Positions 12,161 to 44,127 of a DNA stretch of 64,000 bases are shown here, one piece after another (position 1 is the stretch's first letter; each line of letters starts with the position of its first letter). The translations under genes were made by a program, and so were the position numbers. The stretch is from Manis javanica. Taxonomy: Eukaryota > Chordata > Mammalia > Pholidota > Manidae. The stretch is taken from assembly GCF_040802235.1 (NCBI RefSeq), contig NC_133166.1, positions 114,156,991-114,220,990 of the forward strand, given 5' to 3'. The notes below the pieces were generated by a model. That model had not been told where the DNA came from. It was given only the letters and a program-made list of their open reading frames with translations, and did not search any database.

Positions 12161-12239
12161 CAAGACAGTGAAGACAGCGCAGGCTGGAGGTGGCTGCCTC
12201 GGCGCGGCCTGGGGAACCCAGCTCCGCGCGCCTGCCGCC

Positions 12240-15200
12240 ATGCAGGACGGTAACTTCCTGCTGTCGGCCCTGCAGCCTGAGACCGGTGTGTGCTCCCTGG
12301 CACTGCCCTCTGACCTGCAGCTGGACCGCAGGGGCGCAGAAGGGCCTGCAGCTGAGCGGTGGCGCGCAGCCCGTGTCCAGGAGCAGGTCCGCGCCCGCCT
12401 CCTGCAGCTGGGCCAGCAGCCACGGCACAATGGAGCGGGGGAGACCAGCAGGGCCGCGGAGGCAGCCAGAGGTAGGGGACAGCAGGGGGTGGGCGCCGGG
12501 TGAGCAGGGGTAGCCTGGGGAGGGTGTGGTGGTGGGAGGGCCAGAGGCCACTGTGAAGCTGGCTCTGGGGTTCAACTGCCTGACTCACTGAGGCCTTGCA
12601 CTGAGTCACCTGCCCCGCCCCACCGGGCCTGGGAGAAGCCATGGGTGGGGCCTCCCACCACCCAGCAGGGACCCCAAGGTTCCTCTCACGGAGCCTGGCT
12701 AGGCCCCACCTGGCCCACTGGCCAAGCCCCACCATGGGGTCAACGGGCAAATCAGCACACGGCGGTCCCACATCTGTCAGTAAACCCAGAACATGCACAC
12801 GTCATGCGCCATGTAACACTGGCACACACATGGTCTCAGATGCATCCAGACACGTCAGTCCCACAGATACATAGACGCCCAGACTCCAGCGTCCCTGCCC
12901 CGCCCCCAGGGAGGAAGCAGACCAGTGTGAGGAACGGGTCTGGGGAGGCTGGTCAAGACCCACCGGCCTGTCTGGACCAGGGTCTCTCTGCGGAATTGTG
13001 GGGAGCCCACCAGAGCAACCCCCCCGGTGCCAGGCAGATTCCCCAGCCTAGCAGAAAGCCTGGCCCCCATGTGTGAGTGTGAATGTGAGTGCATGTTAGT
13101 GCGTTTATGTGCACACATGAGAGTTAAAGACCCCACACTTGGCAAGTTCAGGACATTTGTTCTAGAAACATCTCTCCTTTGCCTGCTACAGCAACAGAGA
13201 CCAAGGGAGACAAAAAGAAGGATCCCCACCCGGGTGCTGAGACCAGTCACAGTGGTTCACATGATGACTAGAGGGCCCTTCCCTGCAACTGGCCTCTGGG
13301 GCAGCCTGGATGCCAGGGTCCTCCCTCCCTGGGCCTCAGAGCTGGGTGCCCAGGGATCATGGGGTGCAGGAGGGACAGAGAGGGGTTAATTGCCACCCTG
13401 GTTACCCTGCCAATTAGGGGAGGAGGATAATTTGGGGGTGGGGTGAGGTCCCCAGGCTGAGCCTCACTGGCATCAAAGGGTTAATAGCCCTGCCCAGCAG
13501 CCCCATTAACCAGGGCAGGTCTAGGGAATGTACTGGCAGGGGGAACCCCCAGACCACCCAGCTCCACAGAGGCTGGGGGTGGGGGGAACCGAGGCCACCT
13601 TCCCTTGACCTCCATGAGAGCCCTCAGCAGCTCTCTGCCCTGGGCCCCAGGGAGGGACAACTCTTCTCCCCAAGGCAAGGCCCACCTGGGCCCCTGACAA
13701 AAGCTGAGCCCCAAGGCACCCCATCTGGGCATCTCCCAGGCACCCACCCGCCGCAGACCATTCCCACTGCTGTGCCTCAGTTTGGCCATCACCCAGCCCT
13801 TCTCGGTGTTTTCCAGTTCTTGTTAGGCAGCCATCATCTGTCCTTCTGTCCATCCCTCCATCCTCTGGCTTAGCTCTCTCTACCCACCGGGCTGCCTGTC
13901 CCTCCAACCCCCATCCTTCAAACAATCTGAGCAGCCGCACACACCCACCTCTCTGTCCACTTACCAGTCTGGCTGGCACCAGTGCCCTCACTTTCTGTGT
14001 GGCTGGATGGGGTGCGTGTGGCTTTGCAGGTGGGACGCTGTCCTCGGCAAGTGCAGTCACTCCTGTGTGACCACAGTGCAGGATGGGCGCACAGGAGGTC
14101 AGTGTGGCTCCCTGGAGCAGGGGGCTGAGTGTTGGGCCCTGGAAGGGACTGAAGAGCACGTTGCCCAGGCAGCCAGGAGGCCAGCTGGGTGAGTCAAGGG
14201 GCAGGGGCCACGGGCTGAAGCCTAACCCTAGCCCAAGTCCACCGGCCACCCAGTCCTGGGTCCCAGGATCACAGAGAAGAGACAGGAGGCCAGTGCTGCA
14301 CCACCTGGCATGGCCAGACTGCCACTGTCCCTGTCTACAGGCTCATCCCAGGGTCAGTACCACACCCTGCAGGCTGGCTTCAGCTCCCGCTCCCAGGGCC
14401 TGAGTGGGGACGCGTCGGTGAGTGACACCCTCTGCATCCCCTGGAGAGTCTGGGCTCCACAGTCATATGGGGAGGCTCTGGGGGAGGCTGGGGACGCCAG
14501 GCGAGCCCCTGCAGGCCCTCAGCGCCCTCCCCTCCCCACCCTACAGACCTTCCGGCCCATCGCCAAGCCTGCCTATAGCCCCACCTCCTGGTCCTCCCGC
14601 TCTGCTGTGGACCTGAGCTCCCGTCGGAGGCTGAGCACTGCCCACAACGGGGACGGTGCCTTTGGGGCTGGGGGATTCGGGGGAGCCCAGCCTGCTGCCC
14701 CCATGCCTGCCCGGCCCTTGTCCTTCCATGAGCGTGGTGGGATGGGGAGCCGGGGCGACTATGACACCTTGTCCCTGCGCTCGCTGAGGCTGGGTGCCGG
14801 GGGCCTGGACGACCGCTACAGCGTGGTGTCTGAGCAGCTGGAGCCCCCTGCCACCTCCGCCTACAGGGCTTTTGCCTATGAGCGGCAGGCCAGCTCCAGT
14901 TCCAGCCGTGCTGGGGCCCTGGAGTGGCCGGAGACCACCGAGGGGCCACCCAGCCGGACCATCCGGGCCCCAGCCATGCGCACCCTGCAGCGATTCCAGA
15001 GCAGCCACCGCAGCCGGGGCGGGTCTGGCGGGGGGCCAGTGGGGATCCTGGAGCCCGTGACCCGAGCACCCTCTGTGCGCAGCCTCAGCCTGAGCATGGC
15101 CGACGCCAGCCACCTGCCTGACGTGCGTGGCCTGGACGGCTATGACAGCCGCCGCACTCTGCAGAGGCTCAGCAGTGGGTGAGCTGGGCCTGGCTCAGGG

Positions 15201-18200
15201 AGAAGCCTCTGCCCCTGGCCTGTCCCTGAGGTCAGCCTGACCCCTGACCCCATCTCTGCAGCTTCGATGACATTGATCTGCCCTCAGCAGTTAAGTACCT
15301 CATGGCCTCGGACCCCAACCTGCAGGTGCTGGGAGCAGCCTACATCCAGCACAAGTGCTATAGTGATGTGACGGCCAAGAAGCAGGTAGCCTGCTGCCCT
15401 GTGGACACCCCTACTGCCCACCTCCCTGGTGATCCCCAAGCTGACTTGGCACACCCCATCTTGCCCAGAGCCTTCTCAGCAGAGAATGGGTGGGAGGGGA
15501 GGATGTGCACACACCTGCACACTTCTGCCCACACCTGTGTACACCTGCCCACCTCTGCACACACCTGCATATACCTGCACACTTCTGCATACACCTGCAC
15601 ACATATATATCATCTGTGCACACCTTCACACATGTGCATACATCTGTACACACTTGCATCATCTGCATAGACCAGCACCATGTACAGATATCTACATATG
15701 TTTGCACATACCTGTTATATATTTGCATTCATTTGCATGTATCTGCTTACATATGTGTGCATCTGCCTGGATCTGCAACACATCACCTTTACAGGTTTTC
15801 ATATACTTGAATACATCTACCTACCCCTGTATCATCTGCACACACCTGCACACACCTGCAGGTACACACACAAGCACTAACACCCACATAAACATATAGG
15901 TTTGGTCCCAGCCTTTTTATTAATTTTCAATAGAATTACACATACAAGTATCCACCCCCCAGTGAAAATGCCCTTCAAGTTATTACAGGACCAAAAGGAG
16001 CTGGTGTCAAGCATGCCAATAAGGCAGCAAATAACACCTTGCTAAGCCACACCCCCACGGGAAACAGCAGTGATAAAAATTAAGCCATAAACGAAAGTTT
16101 GACTTAGCCATATTGTACCGGGTTGGTAAATTTCGTGCCAGCCACCGTGGTCATACGATTAATGACCCACAGGCCCGCAGTCTTCATGCTGTGCCCAGGC
16201 TGGTGAAGCTCTTCAACCATGCCAACCAGGAGGTTCAGCGCCATGCCACGGGTGCCATGCGCAACCTCATCTATGACAACGCCGACAACAAGCTGGCCCT
16301 GGTGGAGGAGAACGGCATCTTTGAGCTGCTGCGGACGCTGCGTGAGCAGGACGATGAACTTCGCAAAAATGTCACAGGTGGCCCAGCCCCACCAACCTGT
16401 TCCGTCTTTCCTTGGTCCCCATGGCTGTTCTTATGTCTCTGGAGCCAGCCCCCGGCCCACAGGCCCATGTCCCCAGGGGTCCTCTGCTCTGCTGCAGCCC
16501 GTGATCCTGCAGGTCACACTCAGTCTGTCCCTGGTGGGGCTCCTGGGTGAGGTGCACATGCTAGGTAGGACCTGGGAGCTGTTGCTGACCACGGCCTCCA
16601 CCCCACCTGCCAGGGACCCTGTGGAACCTATCCTCCAGCGACCACCTGAAGGACCGCCTGGCCCGAGACACACTGGAGCAGCTCACAGACCTGGTGCTGA
16701 GCCCCCTCTCTGGGGCAGGAGGGCCACCCCTCATCCAACAGAATGCCTCTGAGGCAGAGATCTTCTACAATGCCACGGGCTTCCTCAGGTACACGGGACA
16801 ATGGTAGTGGGCTGGGAGAGGCTGAGGTGGTGGCCATGGGGAGGCTGGAGAAGGGGCATTAAATCCAAGGTCTGGATAACAAGGTGGAACCAGCCACGGG
16901 GCAGGTGACATGGCCAAACCAAGCAACACTAGAGGCTGGAGGGAAGCAGGCCACCAGGTGCAGCCACCCAGTGGAAGTCAGCACTCCAGTGGCTGCAAGC
17001 TCAGGTTTCACTAAACCAGAGACTCAGTCTGACATTCATAACCCACCCTGGGCACTTCGAGGAGTCAAGGGCAGGTGGGCGTGCAGAGGGACCGGGGCTA
17101 GGGGCAGGACTTGCTGGGGGCAGGGCCCAGTCACAGGGAGGAGGGGACCAGCACTCAGGATCTCAGCCCTTGCGTTTGGGTTCCTGTGGGGGTCTCTGAT
17201 CTACCTCCACCCCCAGGAACCTCAGCTCAGCCTCCCAGGCCACCCGCCAGAAGATGCGTGAGTGCCACGGGCTGGTGGACGCCCTGGTCACCTACATCAA
17301 CCATGCCCTGGATGTGGGCAAGTGCGAAGACAAGGTGAGGAGAGGGGGTAAGACAGTTACCAAAGGGGCCTGGGGCTTCCTGGCCTGCTCTGAGCACGTC
17401 CGCCCTCCAGAGCGTGGAGAATGCTGTGTGTGTACTGAGAAACCTGTCCTACCGCCTGTACGATGAGATGCCACCGTCAGCCCTGCAGCGGCTGGAGGGC
17501 CGGGGCCGAAGAGATGTGGACGGGGCACCACCCGGCGAGGTGGTCGGCTGCTTTACTCCCCAGAGCCGGCGGCTCCGAGAGGTGGGTGACAGCCTGGGTG
17601 GGTGGGAGCAGGGGTCGCAGCCTGACCCGGGCTGACCTCAGCACTCTCCCGCCAGCTGCCTCTCGCCACTGACGCACTCACCTTCGCCGAGGTGTCTAAG
17701 GACCCCAAGGGCCTAGAGTGGCTGTGGAGCCCCCAGATCGTGGGGCTGTATCACCGGCTGCTGCAGCGCTGTGAGCTCAATCGGCACACAACCGAGGCAG
17801 CCGCTGGGGCGCTGCAGAACATCACCGCAGGCGACCGTAGGGTGAGGGCGGCCCTGGGCACCACGGAGCAAGTGCCCCACCTGACAGGACCCACACCTGA
17901 CCATGTGCTGGGAACAGAGGGTGCCCAGGGGATGGGAGCCTGATCTCCAGCTCACAGCCAGCTGGGGAGGGTCAGGGAACTCATGCAGACACGCGGTGGA
18001 GCCAGGAGAGAGGCAGAGAAGGCAGGGCGTGCAACTGAGGTGGTGGCTATGAGCAGGGCCGGAGGAACAAGAAGGCGGGCGTCCGAGGGCTGACCAAGAG
18101 AGTGAAGTCAGCTTCCTGGACAGGACAGACCTCCGGGACCCCTGAGGACAGGTTTAAGGGCAGGTGCCTGGGAGGTCTGTGGTGTGCAGGCAGAAGCAGG

Positions 18201-19225
18201 GATGCCCAGCAGGTAAGAGGCAGAGGCCAGCCCTGCCTCAGAACGCTGTAAGGACCGAGGGAGGAGGCCCAGCCTGGAATGCTGTGGGCGTCACGCTCTC
18301 CCCGGCCCCTCTCCGACCTGCAGTGGGCGGGCGTGCTGAGCCGCCTGGCTCTGGAGCAGGAGCGCATCCTGAACCCACTGCTGGACCGCATCCGGACTGC
18401 AGACCACCACCAGCTGCGCTCGCTGACCGGCCTCATCCGAAACCTGTCTCGGAACGCCAGGAACAAGGACGAGATGTGTGAGTCAGGTCCTCCACAGCCC
18501 GGGGCCCGCCTGCACACCGCCCAGCTGAGCTCATACCTGGATCCTGCCTGGGCTGGCCTCAGTGAGCCAGAGCCTGGGGGAGAGCAGCCCAGCCCCCTGG
18601 GGCAGCAGGGGACTGACAGTGCTGGGGGATGGAGGGTGGAGACTGACCCCAACCTCCCGGCAGCCACCAAGGTAGTGAGCCACCTGATCGAGAAGCTGCC
18701 AGGCAGCATAGGTGAGAAGTCTCTTCCAGCCGACGTGCTGGTCAACATCATAGCCGTGCTCAACAACCTGGTGATGGCCAGTCCCATTGCTGCCCGGGAC
18801 CTACTCTACTTCGATGGGCTCCGAAAGCTGGTCTTCATCAAGAAGAAGCGAGACAGGTGAGCCCCACCCCTGATCCTGGCCCAGCGCCCCCTCCCTGCCT
18901 TCTGGCCACGCCTGTTACCCAGCTGACCCCTCTCCCCCAGCCCTGACAGTGAGAAGTCGTCACGGGCAGCCTCCAGCCTCTTGGCCAATCTGTGGCAGTA
19001 CAACAAGCTGCACCGAGACTTCCGGGCGGTATGTTCCAGCAACCCAGGGCCACGGGCACAGATGTCCGGGAGGACAATCTGGTGGAGAGGGAGACACAGG
19101 AAAGGGGACCAGGAACTTGGGAGGAGCAGGGCTGGGCAGGCAAGCCTGCCCCCTGACTCTGGGCCTTCTCTCCCCAACCCCCGCTGCAGAAGGGCTATCG
19201 AAAGGAGGACTTCTTAGGCCCATAG
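12240..19225 (+). CDS. PKP3: PKP3, plakophilin-3, complete coding region (13 exons, 796 aa)
   Basis: Exons: 12240..12471, 14341..14417, 14547..15178, 15262..15385, 16173..16377, 16614..16788, 17217..17334, 17411..17581, 17656..17841, 18324..18477, 18664..18856, 18941..19028, 19190..19225. All junctions are GT-AG, all phases close, and the total is 2,391 nt (human: 797 aa). The start has a strong Kozak context (GCCGCCATG) and gives MQDGNFLLSALQPE. Residues 1 to about 290 form the Ser/Gly/Arg-rich head (YDTLSLRSLRLG, FHERGGMGSR). The rest is the armadillo-repeat region, with blocks such as GAMRNLIYDNADNKLALVEE, LWNLSSSDHLKDRLARD, CVLRNLSYRLYDEMPPSALQ and LTGLIRNLSRNARNKDEM, ending HRDFRAKGYRKEDFLGP. 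Plakophilin-3 sits in the desmosomal plaque of epithelia, linking desmosomal cadherins and desmoplakin. The odd point is the NUMT ending about 8 bp before exon 5 (16,173). Confidence 0.97.
15490..15883 (+). repeat. Degenerate CACACCTG tandem repeat in PKP3 intron 4
   Basis: Many imperfect copies of an 11-12 bp unit close to 'cacacctgcaca' fill this stretch, grading into 'catatatctgcat' variants. The open frames across it, rich in Thr, His and Cys, are artefacts of the repeat. Confidence 0.85.
15884..16164 (+). pseudogene. NUMT: nuclear copy of mitochondrial tRNA-Phe 3' end plus 5' 12S rRNA
   Basis: From 'cataaacatataggtttgg' the sequence follows the mammalian mitochondrial L-strand order: the tRNA-Phe acceptor end, then 12S rRNA from its first base. 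Diagnostic blocks are 'ggtttggtcccagcc', 'agtatccaccccccagtg', 'agccacacccccacggg', 'aaattaagccataaacg' and 'ttcgtgccagccaccg', ending at 'gtcatacgattaa'. It is nearly colinear with real 12S rRNA, so the insertion is not very old, though 'accgtgg' where mitochondria have 'accgcgg' looks like CpG decay. It lies in PKP3 intron 4 directly after the CACACCTG repeat and about 8 bp before exon 5. It is not a working rRNA gene. Confidence 0.93.
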
Positions 19226-41300: not shown

Positions 41301-44127
41301 CAGAGAGATGGCAGGGAGAGTCCTCCTGGCCTCTCCAGACCATGCCCACCCTTTAAGGCCAGGAACACAGTCACGTGTGATCCCCAGAACACTCTAAGGG
41401 GGGAGGACTCTTGAACCCCCATCACAGACATGGACACTGAGGAACAAAGCCCTCCCCCTGGACCTCTGCCCTGAAACCACACCTTGGAGCCTCCCTCACT
41501 GCTCACCTGGGCCAGGCACGGGGGTGGGCGTGGCCCCCTGGCCCTGACTCTCAGCCAGCCTCTCACCTGGTGGTGGCCAGGATGGGGATGGGCCTGGCTG
41601 GCTCCACCCTGGGGACAGGACCCTCAGGCTCCGTAAGGAGTGTGTGATACAGGGCGAAGACCCTGCTGTCAGCTTGGATCCCAAAGAAGACCTTCTCCTG
41701 GTCCTCTATCACCTGGGAGCAGGGGACAGCTTGGGACCCTCACCCCTCTGTCTACAGGGATGGCCTGTCCCTTCCACCTCAGGCAAGGCCACAGGCCACC
41801 TCTCCAGACCCCTCCCAGGACCCACCGGCCCCGTGACCCCTGCCCCCACTGCTGACCGGTGCCCATGCCGGGTCCTCACCAGCCCACCTTGTAATGGAAG
41901 CCCTTTCCCTCGAGCTCCTCCAGGAATTGCTGCTGCCGGCGGGCCCATCTGGGGTCTCTCTGGGCACGAGAACCGGCCACAAGGACATAGTCCCATTGCT
42001 CAGAGGCCTCAGTCTGGAGGAAAAAGGGTGTGGGGCTGGGACCGGGCTGGGAGGGACAGGCGCAGGGCATGGGGCAGTGGGGAGACCAAGCACGGCAGCG
42101 TCCAAATGGAGACGCACCTCACGAGCGTTCATCTCCATCATCGGGAAGCTGTCCCCTTCGGGCCCCTCCCAGATCTGGAGGCTCTCTTCGTCCTGGGGTT
42201 GGGGAGGCAGACAGAGGGGGCTTGTTCCTGCAGAAGAGCACCTCCTGGGCCAGAAGCTCCAGCATCAGGGGGGTCAAAACATAAAGCTGTGGAAGGGGCA
42301 CGACAGCCTCCGAGTCTCCCCTTTAGTGACAGTGGCAGCATTAATGAATGTCACACATTCTAGCCTCCTCCCTCCAAGACGTGGGCTTCATCCTCCCTAG
42401 TTGAGTGTGTGCGGGACTTAGCGACTGAGGAAGAATGTGTGGAAAGGGAAAAGGAGTCATTTTACAGAGAACCTATTAGATGCACGGGCCAGGTAATGAA
42501 GGTAAAGTCACAGCAGTGTCATTTAGAAGTCAGGACCCCCGGCAGGATGTGACATGATAGTATGTGGCCCCCTCCCTGAAACCTATAGTCCCGTCTCAGC
42601 ATGAGAAAAAACATACTTTCTCCAGAGCCTGGGCAGACTCAAGGGGTCAGATGGCCAAAGACAAGGGGAACACAGGGACCTCACATGGCAGCGGGAGCCC
42701 CACACGGACCCAGGAACAGGGGAGGACACAGGTGGGCAAGCTGGTGAGGCCTTGCCAGGCAACAGGTGCTGGTGTTGGGGGAGTACATGCCCCTCTGCAG
42801 GAATACTCATATATGTGCTAAAGCTGCACAGGCAGGGGGCAGAACTGGCTGGGTCGGGGGAGGCTTGGGCCTCATTTCCTCTCTGTGAGCAAAGGTACAG
42901 CAGGTGCTGAGACTCCCATAAAGTGACCCAGGGCCTCTTCCACAGAGGGTCCAGGCCCTTGGTGGGTGGGGGACAAGAGCAGACAGAGCAGGTCGGGGAG
43001 AGCCCAGGGGCCAAGATGCAGAGAGGGCCCCCGGCTTTGGCACCCAACACAGCAAGACTACCGCCTCTTACAGCCTCCAGCAATCCCAGCGTCTGCCCAC
43101 GGGGCTTTGGGTGATGCCTCAGCGTGGCTGAGCACACAGTGTGCACAGGTGACAAGGACCCCAACCCACAGCTGGCAGCTCCCTGGGGAGGTGCAGGGGT
43201 TCCATAGTGTCCCAGGGGTATGGGTATGGTGTCAGAGGGGGAGTCTGGGGGTTCTGTCCATGGGAGCCCCCATCTCACACTGACCAGGCTGGCAAGCCCT
43301 GCCACCTCCCACCACACCACACCCCCCACCCCCTACACTGGCCCTGGACCCTTGCCATGGCCTTGCCCCCGCCCCCCACCCAGCTGGCCCAATGTGGCCC
43401 AGGGTTGTCTTTCACTGCATCACACCCTACTTCCGTGACCTGTCCTCTCTGTCCTGCCCACCACCTGGCCTTTGACCCTGCTGATCCCCCACCTGCTATC
43501 TCATCCCTTCTCCAACCACATTCCTGCTGAGCTCAAGACCTGCCTCCTCCAGGAAGCCTCACCAGACTGCCCTGGAGGGCTGCCAGGTAAGATACACGCT
43601 GCCCAGTCACCTTTGAATTTCAGATAAACAGACAGTGTTTAGTGTAAGTATATCCCAATTACTGCATGGGACATACTTATACTTAAAATTACTTTTAAGA
43701 AGGGACTAGTGGTTACCAAAAGGAAGGGGGAGGGAGGGCAGGTGGGGAGGGAGGGCAGGTGGGGAAGGAGGGAGAAGGGGATTGAAGGGTATTATGACTG
43801 GCACACATGGTGTGTGGGGGATCATGGGGAAGACAGTGTAGCACAGAGAAGGCAAATAGTGACTCTGTGGCATCTTACTACACTGATGGACAGTGACTGC
43901 ATTGGGGTATGTGGGGGAGACTTGATAATAAGGGTGAATGTAGCAACCACATTGTTTTTCATGTGAAACCTTCATAAGAGTGTATATCAATGATACCTTA
44001 ATAAAAAATAAAATAAAGAACAATAGGAAAAAAAATCAATGAAACTAATAATTGGTTCTTTAAAAAGATTGATAAAATTGATAAACCCCTAGCCGGAGTG
44101 ACTAAAAAAATTCTACATAAAAAAAAG

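Follow-up and report, generated by a model that had tools for sequence, protein, structure and literature searches.

NUMTs, nuclear copies of mitochondrial DNA, are already known at splice sites, and the closest described case is a human lesion in F7. There, a 251-bp MT-RNR1 insertion lies in the polypyrimidine tract near the intron 4 acceptor of a patient with severe factor VII deficiency (Borensztajn et al. 2002, as cited in PMC11393654, PMC515365 and PMC2820518). A second NUMT, 12-89, is present in the human population and is described at a predicted splice donor (PMC515365). Mitochondrial sequence in introns has also been reported in the form of nimtRNAs, intronic mitochondrial tRNAs, one of which raised exon inclusion in a reporter with an acceptor tract of 50% pyrimidines (PMC7722341). 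A further class, the human exons with distant branch points, is marked by an AG-free zone and has its good branch motif a long way upstream (PMC1431707). Here we describe a NUMT in the Malayan pangolin that borders a conserved internal exon of PKP3 on its acceptor side. Among the titles and abstract openings of the matches listed from the open-access literature, we found no report of the PKP3 insert, nor of a conserved internal exon whose acceptor has long carried a NUMT. What is new is therefore not mitochondrial DNA at a splice site as such, but one that has long been tolerated at the acceptor of a conserved exon.

The locus lies in a 64,000-nucleotide stretch of DNA at C11:114,156,991-114,220,990, which was analysed as a whole and which we call the window. 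The exons of PKP3, a desmosome (skin-junction) gene, were located by tblastn with the human protein and joined at consistent GT-AG sites, giving an intact coding region of 13 exons and 796 codons plus stop on the plus strand (12240-19225). The product is a full-length plakophilin-3, identical to a Smutsia gigantea protein (P0242) in 775 of 818 aligned columns with gaps counted (95%), and many matches among the best 120 of 762 in a protein search are named plakophilin-3. Intron 4 is 787 nt long (15386-16172) and exon 5 is 205 nt long (16173-16377); the exon differs from human PKP3 at one residue over 70 aligned (98.6%). With exon 5 as query, no confirmed relative was found in viral_contigs or genome_contigs. 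An earlier reading of the letters without database searches (the sequence-only reading) had given the same start and length for exon 5 and had stated that skipping it would shift the frame; all three points are confirmed. Upstream of the insert, positions 15506-15669 of the window hold a degenerate CA-rich tandem repeat of 10 and 30 bp.

The 3' end of intron 4 consists almost entirely of a 276-bp NUMT (15887-16162) in the sense of PKP3, on the plus strand. It is followed by ten nucleotides of retained intron end, tgacccacag (16163-16172), with the acceptor AG at 16171-16172. The NUMT matches positions 61-337 of the genome's own mtDNA (contig C63, 16,576 bases) at 89% identity (E = 1.6e-97), and PKP3 sequence lies on either side of it. 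The ND2 gene of C63 has its nearest matches in Manis (94% with a cluster labelled M. crassicaudata, 93% with a record of M. pentadactyla), and the African pangolins among the matches listed reach 79% or less. Agreement with mtDNA and with the full-length nuclear copies begins at CATAAAC (15887) and ends at GATTAA (16162), and the sequences diverge on both sides; T16163 may be a changed mitochondrial C, which would move the end to 16163. The sequence-only reading had thus been correct that the insert is mitochondrial and that it makes up almost all of the intron's 3' end. Its limits, 15884 to about 16164, and its figure of about 8 nt of ordinary intron were right as to an insert and a short remnant, and are replaced here by the measured ends and by ten nucleotides. 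The insert holds about the last 8 nt of tRNA-Phe, for which the acceptor stem in C63 served as the landmark, together with the 5' part of what we take to be 12S rRNA from its position in C63 and from the known sequence of that gene. In an Rfam scan no family fitted the 12S piece, and a SCARNA7 match within it (15.3 bits against a gathering score of 65) was taken as chance. Searches with an exact 12S motif found nothing in viral_contigs or genome_contigs, those with the insert found nothing among phages or plasmids, and ARAGORN found no tRNA in the 64-kb window.

The PKP3 insert resembles the F7 lesion in being a 12S rRNA fragment of about 250 bp in the 3' end of an intron, at the acceptor. The PKP3 insert ends 10 nt before exon 5. 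The two differ in history and outcome, because the F7 insertion is described from a patient with severe deficiency, whereas the PKP3 insert is old, stands in a reference genome and is accompanied by a correct spliced product. NUMT 12-89 likewise lies at a splice site, but that site is the donor of a predicted last intron, whereas the PKP3 insert adjoins the acceptor of an internal exon that is conserved. The likeness to nimtRNAs is mitochondrial sequence in an intron and, in one reporter, a poor acceptor as well. In contrast to nimtRNAs as described, however, the PKP3 insert carries only about 8 nt of tRNA, the rest being 12S rRNA, and is the acceptor region itself.

A search of the animal's own genome (2.56 Gb, 63 contigs) with 15884-16172 gave 34 matches, namely the site itself, the mtDNA contig (89%) and 32 further nuclear places (71-94%). 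We aligned the mtDNA contig with 27 of those 32 places, omitting five short matches; some of the copies are partial (e.g., L018 and L021 to L023). Eight other nuclear copies are 91-94% identical to the insert, the best being L002 at 94%. A separate nuclear copy of the same mtDNA stretch, L013 (G000:C4:90823729-90825005), shows a single difference from the mtDNA contig over 277 sites and is therefore a much younger NUMT or insertion.

The PKP3 insert is distinct from living mtDNA. Against C63 we counted 29 differences over 276 sites, and other nuclear copies are nearer, with 16 differences from L002 over 275 sites. Relative to the consensus of the eight close copies it has 15 differences in 276, four of them at CpG sites and one of those four within what we take to be the 530-loop sequence. 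An assembly artefact, in which mtDNA was wrongly joined into PKP3, had been named in the sequence-only reading as a possible refutation and is a general risk with NUMTs. We consider it extremely improbable here, given the 29 differences from the animal's own mtDNA, the closer relation to nuclear copies, the share of CpG sites among the differences from the copy consensus, and an assembly built from HiFi reads at 37.5x (PMC11825179). A search with the intron stretch 15386-15886 found it once in the genome and revealed no second, empty copy in the assembly. We conclude that the insert is an aged copy, which in substance rules out a recent mtDNA chimera.

The age of the insert can be bracketed roughly. 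In a tree of 18 rows (the PKP3 insert, mtDNA and 16 of the 27 copies, with 11 partial or old copies omitted), its terminal branch is 0.043 and arises from a poorly resolved fork. A good clock seems unlikely, because L002, at comparable depth in the tree, has a branch of no more than 0.0037. At a neutral rate near 2.2e-9 per site and year the insert would be about 20 million years old, with a wide error. Published dates are 22.6 Ma for the earliest divergence within Manis (an older study gave 12.9), 2.71 Ma for that of M. javanica from M. culionensis, and close to 37.9 Ma for that of Asian from African pangolins (PMC10551234). Set against these dates, the estimate suggests that the insert is probably common to more than one Asian pangolin species.

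We found that exon 5 is spliced. The best 120 of the 762 protein matches include P0241, a protein of 820 aa with 13 member sequences, from one contig of 2,634 bases; its source code is 'lgn', which presumably denotes the Logan assemblies of sequencing runs. P0241 equals our 13-exon prediction at 795 of 796 residues (the exception is G553S), the join of exons 4 and 5 included. Its 24 additional N-terminal residues correspond to the frame just 5' of the ATG in the window, with a first codon GTG read as M; this 5' leader (12168-12239) is an open stretch of 24 codons that shares the frame of the start codon, and the P0241 contig contains it. The codons of P0241 span 7 kb of the genome (12168-19222), and a contig of 2,634 bases must therefore derive from spliced RNA or from a retrocopy of spliced RNA. 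A single mismatch over 796 residues suggests that the source is M. javanica or a species very close to it. On this comparison, the exon 4-5 join (TAKKQ followed by ARSLHAVP) uses the AG that directly follows the NUMT, provided that the animal that yielded P0241 carried the insert. Among the best 120 listed proteins, those of other mammals included, the join pattern fitted 96 and did not fit 24, and KKQ precedes the join in 91 of the 96. In one squirrel-monkey model (P0324) a few codons of the intron seem to be included, not enough for a comparison of intron 4.

The acceptor that makes this join is poor. Pyrimidines make up a fraction of 0.47 at -20 to -4, and within 40 nt no pyrimidine run exceeds 3; among the 12 PKP3 acceptors these are the lowest values (others 0.65-0.88 and 5-13, respectively), which bears out the earlier statement that no good polypyrimidine tract is present. 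These counts are independent of our acceptor, donor and branch-point matrices, which are approximate and not those of MaxEntScan. By the acceptor matrix the site scores -0.82, second lowest of the 12 after intron 10 (-1.33), and stands at percentile 86 of the 5,090 AGs in the window, with the other eleven PKP3 acceptors at 84-99. The donor of exon 5 is also weak (0.35, percentile 86). We joined the flanks of the NUMT into a predicted empty site, whose acceptor scores a modest 0.68 (percentile 91). If the insertion removed no bases, the acceptor that preceded it may thus have been modest too, and the NUMT may not have destroyed a strong tract. The sequence-only reading had stated that normal inclusion of exon 5 with an intact ancestral tract would remove the interest in splicing. 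No such tract is present in the sense that only tgacccacag stands between the NUMT and the exon, but the contrast is limited to 0.68 for the predicted empty site against -0.82 now. The splicing interest is real but bounded: exon 5 is spliced.

Several neighbouring AGs outscore the true acceptor. The best near the site is inside the NUMT at 15932-15933 (4.25, plus strand), followed by a second NUMT-internal AG at 15987-15988 (3.36, plus strand), and use of either would lead to a premature stop. The others are the AGs at 16198 (1.50, in exon 5), 15962 (0.20) and 16229 (0.05, in exon 5). The NUMT holds 19 AGs, of which 18 lead to early stops and only 16097 keeps the frame open. Positions 16098-16172, the 75 nt of intron 4 before exon 5 and mostly NUMT, thus form an open in-frame extension of 25 codons; as a candidate product we rejected it, since AG 16097 scores -9.85 and P0241 has no such extension. 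With five AGs outscoring the true acceptor, with skipping of exon 5 producing a frame shift and a stop at codon 367, and with a similar insertion in human F7 reported in severe deficiency (PMC11393654), the insertion could be harmful and disable the gene in part: much PKP3 RNA would skip exon 5 or use NUMT or exonic AGs and be degraded, leaving enough correct RNA for the gene to serve. We regard this as unlikely. A full-length correct product, P0241, exists, although it is a weak test because the protein search retained only proteins of 0.55-1.75 times the query length, so that truncated forms could not appear; moreover, the reading frame is intact across all 13 exons.

How exon 5 is recognised turns on the branch point. 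The best branch motif in 15861-16172 is CACTAAC (15875-15881, plus strand), whose adenosine A15880 lies outside the NUMT, six nucleotides from its start, and would be the probable ancestral branch point. In the predicted empty site A15880 stands at -17 if nothing was lost; it now stands at -293, with 19 AGs between it and the acceptor. Its position just upstream of the NUMT suggests that the insertion probably split the branch point from its AG. From one genome it is plausible that A15880 was the original branch point, and CACTAAC may also be a chance match. The locus shares a good branch motif far upstream with the human distant-branch-point exons, but their AG-free zone is absent, and we rejected a distant branch point with plain AG scanning because of the 19 intervening AGs. 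By the AG-scanning rule (PMC1431707), the present branch point would lie at about 16127-16170, and we expect it within 16127-16161 on the plus strand. The candidates in this zone are weak, namely A16129 (-44), A16153 (-20) and A16155 (-18), at percentiles 72-78 of the adenines in the window, and the best candidate of intron 4 at -45 to -15 is the second weakest among the 12 introns, with only intron 9 weaker. Adenines A16162 (-11) and A16165 (-8), in gattaatgac, score above all three. Adenines at -11 and -8 are too close to the AG by usual limits, and gattaatgac, the branch site suggested in the sequence-only reading, was rejected for this reason even though the motif is present. The broader suggestion that exon 5 relies on a branch point supplied by the NUMT survives in part, in that either a NUMT-borne or a remote branch point is required.

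A remote branch point could still serve if the folded 12S RNA bridged the gap, so that A15880 remained in use while hairpins of the NUMT brought the true AG close and hid decoy AGs. In our model the path from A15880 to AG 16172 has a median of 13 steps against 292 nt linearly, AG 16140-16141 is almost fully paired, and RNA structure bridging a branch point and a 3' splice site has been proposed in fission yeast (PMC9508853). However, 18 of 100 shuffles of the NUMT came equally close, and we rejected a special fold of the NUMT on that count; the model also puts AG 15899 closer than the true AG (median 5 steps), with 19 AGs in the interval. We judge this bridging improbable, more so than a harmful insertion.

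The reading we prefer, to which we give a probability of roughly 65%, is that a NUMT insertion split the branch point from its AG and that exon 5 was kept by means of a weak branch adenosine within the NUMT. An ancestor of the Malayan pangolin would have taken up the 276-bp mtDNA fragment ten bases upstream of exon 5, presumably at a double-strand break, and the acceptor AG would thereby have been parted from A15880 in CACTAAC, which was probably the original branch point. PKP3 stayed functional, with exon 4 still joined to exon 5 at the original AG. U2 may now act on a weak adenosine supplied by the NUMT in the last ~45 nt, either A16153 or A16155, or A16129 with AG 16140-16141 bypassed, while the retained CCCACAG and exon definition could compensate for the missing pyrimidine tract. 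Some mis-splicing to the AGs of the NUMT would be expected, nearly all of it leading to premature stops. What the data show is the insert with its limits and divergence, the poor acceptor and a spliced product; the branch point, the mechanism of tolerance, the age, the fixation and the ancestral state are the parts of this account that we infer. A bolder version, which we find unlikely, is that 12S rRNA DNA has for millions of years been the acceptor module of a constitutive mammalian exon: it would supply the branch point, its fold would hide a decoy AG, and its own strong AGs would divert some of the transcripts into degraded forms, setting the dosage of PKP3 in pangolin epithelia.

The PKP3 NUMT is the counterpart in nature of the human F7 lesion, and its outcome is the reverse. 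A comparison of the two would reveal which features allow an exon to persist once its nearby branch site and pyrimidine tract are gone, which is relevant when disease variants close to acceptors are interpreted. The PKP3 case is also informative on how foreign DNA joins splicing signals, here in a desmosome gene of a scaled mammal. On assumed figures of about 200,000 introns with a 40-nt critical zone each, such zones make up about 0.3% of the 2.56-Gb genome. One acceptor insertion among hundreds of NUMTs would thus not be astonishing; what deserves interest is that it has survived in a conserved gene.

Elsewhere in the window, positions 43637-43688 on the minus strand match the mir-1302 microRNA precursor family at 68.4 bits, above the gathering score of 62.
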